The translations under genes and the position numbers were made by a program. Positions 5,714 through 8,220 of a DNA stretch of 49,819 nt are shown in pieces. This DNA comes from an uncultured bacterium. Its GTDB lineage: Bacteria; Oederibacteriota; PGYV01; Palsa-1178. The notes beneath the pieces were generated by a model. The model had not been told where the DNA came from, made no database searches, and worked only from the letters and a program-made list of their open reading frames with translations. The stretch lies in contig CALAOR010000056.1 of the NCBI GenBank assembly GCA_937889595.1, positions 1 to 49,819 on the forward strand, in the 5' to 3' direction. How positions within the stretch are numbered: position 1 is the stretch's first letter; every line of letters starts with the position of its first letter.

Positions 5714-5808
5714 ACCAAAACAAAACACCAATTATCAATGACTAATTAAATCAGGACAAAAAGAGACCGCCGTAAATCCTTCTATTTTTGGTAATGTTCT
5801 AATGTTTA

Positions 5809-5829
5809 ATTACTCAACTTTGGCAAATT
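5809..5829 (+). repeat. Left arm of 21-bp inverted repeat bounding a cassette
   Basis: The sequence ATTACTC, one variable base, then ACTTTGGCAAATT matches the reverse complement of 7317-7337 at 20 of 21 positions. The two arms enclose the FGE-like lipoprotein gene, its terminator and its promoter. A related GTTTAATT motif precedes each arm, with a small indel between the two copies. Confidence 0.75.
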
Positions 5830-5880
5830 TGCCTGAACAGATAAAATCCAGCAATCCTAATCCTTGTTATGTCATTTTGA

Positions 5881-5929
5881 ATTAAAAAAAATGCCCTGCG
5901 GATTTTGCCTTTGGCAGCCACGCAGAGCA
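5881..5929 (-). terminator. Intrinsic terminator after the FGE-like lipoprotein gene
   Basis: On the minus strand TGCTCTGCG (5921-5929) pairs with CGCAGGGCA (5892-5900) in a 9-bp stem with one G-U pair. A small inner GCC/GGC stem lies in the loop. The hairpin is followed at once by eight U. It lies about 120 nt after the stop codon at 6048. Confidence 0.75.
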
Positions 5930-6047
5930 AAATAAACACACAAACGAACTCACAAAAAAAAATTCCAAAATGTAAAAAAGGTGGAGCACCACTCATATAA
6001 TTATATACTATTCTCCCTCCAGCAAAACTGAATAAAAATCCAAAATG

Positions 6048-7238
6048 TTAATACGTCCTAGCAAGACGTAAACCATCGCCCCAGTAGCGATTATACGGGC
6101 TGTAACTGCTGCGGCTGCCCACCTGCAGGTAGCTATCGGAAGGGTAACAGCTGCCGCCCCGATCCACGCGGCCGACGCCGCTCCCAGATCCTCTATAGTC
6201 TGTAGATGTACCGGGATAATTTCCCCACCAATCCCAACACCATTCCTCTACATTGCCCGACATATCATAGATACCAAGCGCATTTGCTATTTTACCGCCT
6301 ACTGCCTGCGTACCGGTACAATTTGAACTATAGACACCACTATACCACGCTACAAGCCCGGTTGCTGTTGCATTGGTATAGGCCGCTGTCGCGCCGCTGG
6401 CATAGTTATACGGTGTCCAGCTTGACCCGTCTATATAGCTTGCGGCATACTGCCATTCACCTTCTGTCGGTAGTCTGAAACCATTTGTATTCCAGTTCAC
6501 ATACGGATTATCAAAACCCCCTGTTGTTGTATTTATACTGCTTCCATACGACCCGTCTGCAGAACTTTTAATTGGCGTAGTAAAGGCTGCGTCCGAACAA
6601 TATACAGGCGACAACCCTGTTTTCTGGCTGTATGCGTTACACCACACAATTGAATCCCGCCAGTTTATGTACGTTACAGGTTGATATTTTGCAGTAGTAG
6701 GCGCAGCACCCACTATTCCGTTAGTGCCTTCTGCGCCAGCATTAGCAAAACTATAGCCGTTGGCAATTGCCCACTGATATACCGTGTACCACAAGTCATA
6801 CGTTACCTGATACTTTCCCATTTTAAAAGTTGAAATTGTGTGACTGAAACTGCTTGTTCCATCAGTCTGAGTATATGTTCCGCCAGGTACAGAAGCAAGG
6901 TTCGTATAAGGAATCGTTGCTACTGCGGTTTGCGTTGCAACTATTGCTACTGCGGTTTGCGTTGCAACTATTGCTGCTGCGGTTTGCGTTGCAACTATTG
7001 CTGCTGCGGTTGCCGTTGCCGTTGCCGCTGCTGTTTGTTGGTCTTGTGCTGTTGCTGTTTGTTGGGCTCCGATCCCTGCGGTCTGGAGCGCGGCGGCTGT
7101 CTGCGTTATCTGTGCGGCTGATAGTGGAGTAAGCGTGGGGGTATTAATTGATTCGTCAGGAGCTACTGGAATGTGCTTTTTAGAACATGCAACCATAAAA
7201 ATAAGTAATATCATAAATATTATAACGATTTTTTTCAT
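6048..7238 (-). CDS. Lipoprotein with formylglycine-generating-enzyme-like (SUMF1) domain
   Basis: The product is 396 residues. The signal peptide ends in a lipobox (FMVAC, Cys18), so it should be a lipid-anchored surface or periplasmic protein. Residues ~30-110 are a low-complexity Ala/Thr/Gln linker containing a nine-residue tandem repeat (AAIVATQTA type). Residues ~115-396 are an FGE-sulfatase fold with its usual landmarks: PVTYINWRDSIVWCNAYS, GFRLPTEGEWQYAA, GIYDMSGNVEEWCWD, RVDRGGSCY and GLRLAR. The cysteine pair used by true formylglycine-generating enzymes is not obvious, because RGGSCYPSD replaces the usual Cys-rich segment. I therefore expect a binding or structural role rather than sulfatase activation. 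The gene has its own terminator and a poly-G promoter, and lies between inverted repeats. Confidence 0.85.
   Translation of the reverse strand: MKKIVIIFMILLIFMVACSKKHIPVAPDESINTPTLTPLSAAQITQTAAALQTAGIGAQQTATAQDQQTAAATATATAAAIVATQTAAAIVATQTAVAIVATQTAVATIPYTNLASVPGGTYTQTDGTSSFSHTISTFKMGKYQVTYDLWYTVYQWAIANGYSFANAGAEGTNGIVGAAPTTAKYQPVTYINWRDSIVWCNAYSQKTGLSPVYCSDAAFTTPIKSSADGSYGSSINTTTGGFDNPYVNWNTNGFRLPTEGEWQYAASYIDGSSWTPYNYASGATAAYTNATATGLVAWYSGVYSSNCTGTQAVGGKIANALGIYDMSGNVEEWCWDWWGNYPGTSTDYRGSGSGVGRVDRGGSCYPSDSYLQVGSRSSYSPYNRYWGDGLRLARTY
6921..7010. repeat. 27-bp tandem repeat inside the lipoprotein gene
   Basis: A 27-bp unit (starting TACTGCGGTTTGCGTTGC) repeats a little over three times at 6921, 6948 and 6975, with a partial fourth copy at 7002. 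It encodes the nine-residue unit IVATQTAxA in the linker. Copy-number change by 27 bp would keep the frame and only alter linker length. Confidence 0.8.
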
Positions 7239-7268
7239 TTTCCCTCCTTTATGTCATTTCTATCCATA

Positions 7269-7296
7269 AGTATACCCCCCCCCATTATTTTGTCAA
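7269..7296 (-). promoter_or_regulatory. Promoter with a G9 spacer tract, possibly phase-variable
   Basis: On the minus strand a perfect -35 TTGACA (7291-7296) and a good -10 TATACT (7269-7274) are separated by 16 nt. Nine of these are a run of G (plus-strand C at 7275-7283). It lies about 30 nt upstream of the FGE-like lipoprotein ATG, which also has an AAGGAGGG ribosome site. Slippage in the G run would change the spacer around the 17-nt optimum and so promoter strength. Confidence 0.75.
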
Positions 7297-7316
7297 GTTT
7301 TTAGTACCACAGAGTG

Positions 7317-7337
7317 AATTTGCCAAAGTCGAGTAAT
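7317..7337 (-). repeat. Right arm of 21-bp inverted repeat bounding a cassette
   Basis: This arm is the reverse complement of 5809-5829 with one mismatch. It lies between the lipoprotein promoter and the end of the M23 peptidase gene. Confidence 0.75.
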
Positions 7338-7365
7338 CAGTAATTAAACCTGCATTATTCTTTAT

Positions 7366-8220
7366 TTAAAACGCAGTCAGGAACTCCGCCGGGTTCACCG
7401 GTATTTTATACACGTTCATCTGCCAGTGCAGGTGCGGGCCCGTTGCGATGCCCGTGGCGCCTACTGTTCCTATTATATCCCCTTTTGAAACAAGCGTATC
7501 CTTTTTTACATAAACCTTCTGCATGTGATAATACATGGAATAAATACCCGCGCCGTGGTCTATTATCACTATATTACCGCAGCTTTGTGTCGAGGCTGCC
7601 GAGACCACGTTCCCGCTGCTTGCGGCGCGGATGGGCGTCCCTTTTTTCGCAGCAATATCCCAACCCTTGTGGCGCCAGGCGGCTTTTCCGTTATCATACA
7701 CCCTTTGATCGCCGAAATTCCCGGTTGTAATCCCTTCGACAGGCTTCATAAATGGAAAATCATATTTGACCGGCGTTATCGGATCCTGAATGGATTTAAT
7801 TATCGTGCTTTCCTTTGACATTTTAGCGTTAAATGTATCATTGATCATCCCCGTGTTAATTGTGGTTTCCCTGCCCTTGACCTGTTTTACCCTTATCTTC
7901 TCGTCTTTTACTCCTTCAGTATCGTCCTTAAGCAGGTATTTGATGGTTAATTTCTTTGTTCCTTTGGTCCCAAGCGGCACGGGTATCACCGCTGCGCATA
8001 CATATTCAGTGTCGTGTATGTCAAATTTTTTATAAAAAGCCTGGTATGTGTTGCCCATGAATTCAATATTTGTCGCTTTCAAAGGTTCGTTGCTGCGCAG
8101 GCTTATTTTTATTATGCCGCCCTCTTTGACGGTATTTGTGTCAAGCATGACATATGTTTCGCACATAAGAATAAACGGGGTTAAAAACACGATGAACAGC
8201 GAAACAATGTATTTTTTCAT
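7366..8220 (-). CDS. Exported M23-family (LytM-like) peptidase
   Basis: The product is 284 residues with a signal peptide at ~1-20. The middle region (~20-150) is beta-rich and unassigned, possibly an Ig-like fold. The C-terminal ~130 residues are a LytM/M23 domain. RHKGWDIA supplies the first His and Asp zinc ligands, and GPHLHWQM supplies the catalytic and third zinc histidines, so the site looks intact. Such enzymes cut peptidoglycan cross-bridges in the periplasm or serve at division and envelope growth. Its ATG is one base after the pyrD stop (TGA-C-ATG), so it is probably co-translated with pyrD although it is not a pyrimidine gene. Confidence 0.9.
   Translation of the reverse strand: MKKYIVSLFIVFLTPFILMCETYVMLDTNTVKEGGIIKISLRSNEPLKATNIEFMGNTYQAFYKKFDIHDTEYVCAAVIPVPLGTKGTKKLTIKYLLKDDTEGVKDEKIRVKQVKGRETTINTGMINDTFNAKMSKESTIIKSIQDPITPVKYDFPFMKPVEGITTGNFGDQRVYDNGKAAWRHKGWDIAAKKGTPIRAASSGNVVSAASTQSCGNIVIIDHGAGIYSMYYHMQKVYVKKDTLVSKGDIIGTVGATGIATGPHLHWQMNVYKIPVNPAEFLTAF

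Follow-up and report, generated by a model that had tools for sequence, protein, structure and literature searches.

A G9-spacer promoter, possibly tuned by slippage, in a dispersed inverted-repeat lipoprotein cassette of candidate phylum FCPU426

The window, by which we mean the whole stretch of 49,819 nucleotides that was analysed (contig CALAOR010000056.1), belongs to a draft genome of candidate phylum FCPU426 (3.42 Mb, 93 contigs, 98.96% complete). On its minus strand positions 7269–7296 read TTGACA-AAATAAT-GGGGGGGGG-TATACT, that is, a -35 hexamer which matches the consensus at 6/6 positions (TTGACA, 7291–7296), a 5' spacer part which is identical across seven homologous promoters (AAATAAT, 7284–7290), nine G's which form the 3' end of the spacer (7275–7283), and a -10 hexamer which matches at 5/6 positions (TATACT, 7269–7274). 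The preliminary description had reported these two hexamers on the minus strand, 16 nt apart and with nine G's between them, and the sequence read confirms this. The 30 nt between the end of the -10 hexamer and the ATG at 7238 include a ribosome-binding site (AGGAGGG, 7242–7248, minus strand). In a scan of 16 kb this promoter ties for the top place among 35 sigma-70-like matches, a number which barely exceeds the shuffled level of 29.1 ± 4.3.

The gene downstream (6048–7238, minus strand) specifies a protein of 396 amino acids with an N-terminal lipoprotein signal (..LIFMVAC; lipobox MKKIVIIFMILLIFMVAC) and, at residues 117–394, a domain of the FGE/C-type-lectin fold [PF03781, E=4.8e-27]. The description of the downstream product as a lipoprotein with an FGE-type domain is therefore borne out by lipobox and Pfam motif alike. 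Its best solved relative is TvpA, a variable lipoprotein of Treponema denticola that is targeted by a diversity-generating retroelement (DGR) [2y3c, E=4.8e-27]. Catalysis by FGE involves a paired-cysteine motif in the C-terminal region. In the C-terminal region of the window protein these cysteines are absent, the sequence there being RGGSCYPSDSYLQVG, and most paralogues have F or Y; on this motif a catalytic FGE was rejected. The protein is predicted to be a TvpA-like surface lipoprotein built on the FGE fold and not a formylglycine-generating enzyme, the lipobox and the extracellular-type fold suggesting a location on the outer surface.

The C-terminal region of the protein (SCYPSDSYLQVGSRSSYSPYNRYWGDGLRLARTY, 6051–6150, minus strand) is hypervariable. 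Across 18 family members 15/33 columns in this region are hypervariable, versus 18/239 in the rest of the domain. Its variable codons are mostly of the form NNC (70%, versus 26% and 21% elsewhere, p 9e-27), and the bias persists among amino acids having four or six codons. Adenine-directed mutagenesis of AAC codons, as carried out by retroelements, would leave such a scar, and the fixed third base agrees with variable codons that go back to AAC or AAT in a template. Reverse transcriptase (PF00078) gave no match in the genome of the window or in 13 order-level relatives, the controls being positive, and DNA searches of the same genomes for a template repeat returned only the variable regions of the genes themselves or low-complexity repeats. 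Four template candidates (G003:C113, G008:C88, G011:C77 and G003:C51) proved to be low-complexity or AAC-rich coding repeats. An active DGR in this genome was rejected for lack of both reverse transcriptase and template. In T. denticola orphan targets are known that no core DGR accompanies (PMC4891356).

Promoter and gene are enclosed by inverted repeats of ~23 bp. The left terminal inverted repeat (TTACTCGACTTTGGCAAATTCAC, 7314–7336, minus strand, one mismatch to the consensus) lies just upstream of the promoter and its inverted partner (TTACTCAACTTTGGCAAATTTGC, 5810–5832, plus strand, two mismatches) downstream of the gene; an independent repeat search recovered the pair as arms of 30 nt with 83% identity at 5800–5829 and 7317–7346. 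Between gene and right repeat there is a strong intrinsic terminator, a stem-loop followed by a U tract (5884–5929, or 5892–5929 in narrower limits, minus strand, -20.1 kcal/mol, z -2.43). Since the unit carries, in order, a repeat, a promoter, a lipoprotein gene, a terminator and a repeat, it is self-contained (5810–7336, minus strand, 1527 bp).

Four other units bounded by this repeat were found: C81 (2807 bp), C32 (2541 bp, with two FGE genes) and C23 (1365 bp) in the same genome, and C15 (1261 bp) in a bog MAG of candidate division FCPU426 which represents a related genus of the same GTDB family (G003). A BLASTN comparison of the five units plus flanks showed homology from repeat to repeat at both ends, and none in the 400-bp flanks. 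The 22-nt core of the repeat, with up to three mismatches, occurs seven times in the window genome, seven times in G003, twice in G001 and once in G014, while the reversed control gave no matches. There are also partial copies, with the right end only (C88b) or the left end only (C77a), and contigs C9 and C57 break within what is probably a single additional copy. Two contigs of G003 (C17 and C87) terminate precisely at the repeat, which is what one would expect where an assembler cannot resolve copies that are almost identical. Candidate target-site duplications are the direct repeats TAATTA at C23 and TAAATTA at C81, but the flanks there are AT-rich and near-palindromic, and at C56 (the window copy) and C32 the repeats are imperfect. 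We regard it as highly probable that gene and promoter constitute a discrete, dispersed 1.5-kb inverted-repeat cassette with many paralogues. Because homology stops at the repeats and the flanks are unrelated, the cassette looks like a non-autonomous mobile element without an internal transposase, which is our best reading of these sequences. In G003 the terminal repeat also opens an element of ~80 bp ending in ..GTCGAG (C133, 5197–5218), which may be a miniature derivative that has lost the cargo by deletion. Carriage by viruses was rejected, as a search of IMG/VR yielded neither terminal repeat nor promoter, and an inversion switch between the repeats is unlikely, as they enclose the promoter, which would be flipped together with the gene.

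The neighbours of the window cassette are an HNH gene and an M23 peptidase gene, the ends of which converge on it. The M23 gene lies upstream on the same strand and stops at 7366, which leaves 30 bp to the cassette, and the minus strand has no terminator-like site in this interval. One might suppose that the lipoprotein is transcribed mainly from the M23 gene and that in this copy the G-tract promoter is of little importance; since no terminator was found between the two genes, read-through could bypass the switch. We consider this unlikely, given that every copy of the cassette possesses a promoter and terminator of its own and adjoins different genes, and that a near-consensus promoter and a ribosome-binding site have been retained.

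Comparison of the homologous promoters places the variation within the G tract. In the genome of the window C56 has G9 and a spacer of 16 nt, C77a GGGTGGGGGG and 17 nt, C32a AGTGGTGGG and 16 nt, C23 GGGGAGGGT and 16 nt (its -35 hexamer being TTTACA), and C81 GAGGGGG and 14 nt; in G003 the tracts are G8 (C15, PLPI01000008) and AG7 (C22, PLPI01000085), each with a spacer of 15 nt. Among these seven promoters the sequence upstream of the tract, TAAAAACTTGACAAAATAAT, shows no indel and few substitutions, and the tract takes four lengths of 7–10 nt, so that the distance between -35 and -10 shifts from copy to copy (14–17 nt). In a more distant genome of another family in the same order the arrangement is changed, TTC-G11 preceding TAAGAT with a spacer of 20 nt (G008:C51). 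Spacers of 14 to 17 nt should range from silent to optimal for a sigma-70-type polymerase. On an evolutionary scale the G tract is where the promoter is hypermutable. About half of the homologous tracts (C77a, C81, C32a and C23) are interrupted by A or T, and others are pure G. Such interruptions slow slippage in a G tract; these four tracts slip slowly, so that some members of the family are not currently hypermutable, and the interrupted copies may represent locked states.

The same comparison might be read in another way, namely that a G-rich spacer was inherited with the cassette and gives each copy a fixed strength, the differences in length being ordinary long-term divergence and slippage at G9 being too rare in a repair-proficient cell. 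The interrupted tracts would agree with such a static promoter, as would the identity of the paralogues, which at just 60–70% implies ample time for indels. Against it, the indels are restricted to the tract, the 20 preceding bases having none, and pure tracts of 7, 8, 9 and 11 persist across three genera.

A surplus of long G runs throughout the genome was rejected on the count of six runs of at least nine G's in 3.42 Mb versus ~12 expected from base composition, and this absence again favours the static promoter. The run at 7275 is the sole one of the six to lie in a promoter. Of the other five, two fall in ORFs of glycosyltransferase type and one in an ORF with NHL repeats, which are typical classes of contingency genes. 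The former are G9 runs 11 kb apart on contig C76 (200571–200579 and 211842–211850), inside ORFs matching the GT87 and PMT_2 glycosyltransferase families, and are candidate sites of a translational phase variation that would affect surface sugars; the latter is a G9 run on contig C64 (13527–13535) inside an ORF with NHL/beta-propeller repeats.

The pattern TTGACA-N13-20-TATAMT has 136 matches in the genome, versus 10 for the reversed control. Among the 100 of these 136 that were listed, only three have spacers with an extended G-rich block, and each of these stands in front of an FGE-type lipoprotein gene; the other listed promoters are without such a block, and a lineage-wide taste for G-rich promoters was accordingly rejected. 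Five sites matching TTGACAAAATAATRG-N5-10-TATAMT were found in 59 genomes, all upstream of FGE-type genes and confined to the genome of the window and one related genus. The exact arrangement TTGACA..G7..TATAMT occurs at only four sites in 45 genomes of the phylum, three of them at FGE genes, which likewise speaks against a lineage-wide preference, and the other GGGGGGTATAAT sites inspected in the window genome (contigs C10 and C14) lie within coding sequence. Because the homologous promoters share it, the G run within this consensus promoter is not a chance occurrence.

Promoters of the same shape exist outside the phylum. Scanning 84,980 genomes for TTGACAAAATA-N0-6-G5-N0-6-TATAMT yielded 93 stretches. 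With at least eight G's the next gene had a signal-peptide-like start in 34/45 cases versus 2/29 at G5 (Fisher 2.7e-9), or, once collapsed to protein families, in 22/31 versus 2/14 (p 8e-4), the calls being those of a simple home-made predictor and the G5 control being rich in CsoR-like regulators. This contrast supports a length-tuned expression, and long G tracts abutting a -10 hexamer are found again and again ahead of secreted proteins, in phyla that are not related, as contingency promoters would lead one to expect. Such recurrence further weakens the case for a static promoter, which we hold to be possible but doubtful.

Two of the genomes deserve mention in their own right. Streptobacillus notomytis (LJRV01) has about ten promoters with G8–G11 between TTGACAAAATA and TATAAT, most of which precede secreted proteins, and this set is likely to be a poly-G promoter phasome; in the open-access literature on Streptobacillus and phase variation we found no report of such a set. 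In the Bacilli MAG Lapin-028 bin25 several promoters of the same shape with G10–G11, at five loci and in part on short contigs, precede secreted or membrane proteins.

Promoters of the TTGACAAAATACCCCnnGGGGGTATA type occur in Clostridia, at four loci and others, before short CsoR-like proteins, and these sites appear to be palindromic, operator-like sequences and not slippage tracts. By analogy the G-rich block beside the -10 hexamer of the window promoter might be the operator of a repressor or activator. Operators containing GGGG beside TATA boxes do exist, as the CsoR-like examples among the G5 matches demonstrate, and G-richness is retained even in the interrupted runs. A variation in length of 1–3 nt would however break the fixed geometry of an operator, and there is no dyad around the tract; we judge a regulator site to be quite improbable.

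We lean, then, towards a slippage-tuned promoter within a dispersed lipoprotein cassette. Positions 5810–7336 would be one copy of a transposase-less element which carries the full expression unit of a surface lipoprotein and is presumably mobilized by a transposase acting in trans. Replication slippage in the G tract would displace the -10 relative to the -35 hexamer and so raise, lower or silence transcription. The window copy, with G9 and 16 nt, would then be in an ON or intermediate state, from which one extra G would lead to the optimal 17 nt and losses to weak or silent states, and the interrupted copies would be locked. The proposal in the preliminary description that the lipoprotein is switched in the manner of porA and opc is plausible and stands in part: among homologues it is the tract that varies in length within the promoter, and promoters with at least eight G's elsewhere precede secreted or surface proteins, whereas the interrupted tracts, the lack of enrichment in G runs and the missing terminator after the M23 gene count against it.

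It is chiefly in host-associated pathogens that poly-G promoter switches have been described. We would suggest, as a speculation, that members of FCPU426 carry dispersed mobile lipoprotein cassettes, each with a promoter that slippage can tune and a binding surface that a retroelement diversified in the past, such that the number of copies, their state of expression and their specificity of binding vary independently. If so, contingency expression would operate outside host immunity, in an uncultured environmental phylum, and a mobile cassette that combines a promoter with a variable lectin-like lipoprotein would allow a finished switch to be spread to further sites in the genome. The occurrence across phyla of long G tracts before secreted proteins offers a simple rule for finding further candidates.

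Among known systems, FGE/SUMF1 shares Pfam domain PF03781 with the window protein, the C-terminal region of which differs in being without the paired-cysteine motif of the enzyme. The TvpA/DGR targets of T. denticola likewise have lipoprotein signals, several dispersed target genes and a hypervariable C-terminus (PMC4891356), but neither reverse transcriptase nor template was found in the window genome or the 13 order-level relatives. Miniature inverted-repeat elements (MITEs) and other non-autonomous transposons resemble the cassette in their short terminal inverted repeats, lack of an internal transposase, dispersed copies and AT-rich intergenic sites, and MITEs can carry sigma-70-like promoters (PMC10969869). 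The cassette units differ from them in that they measure 1.3–2.8 kb and contain an entire lipoprotein gene, promoter and terminator included. The closest parallels to the promoter itself are porA of Neisseria meningitidis and opc, in which a pure G run likewise lies between the -35 and -10 of the promoter of a surface protein. Surface expression of porA is high with 11 G's, ~2-fold lower with 10 and 13-fold lower with nine (PMC3639595). Unlike these, the tract described here is rather short and in homologues frequently interrupted, its slippage and the effect of this on expression being predictions, and the promoter is part of a cassette which is bounded by repeats and occupies several sites.
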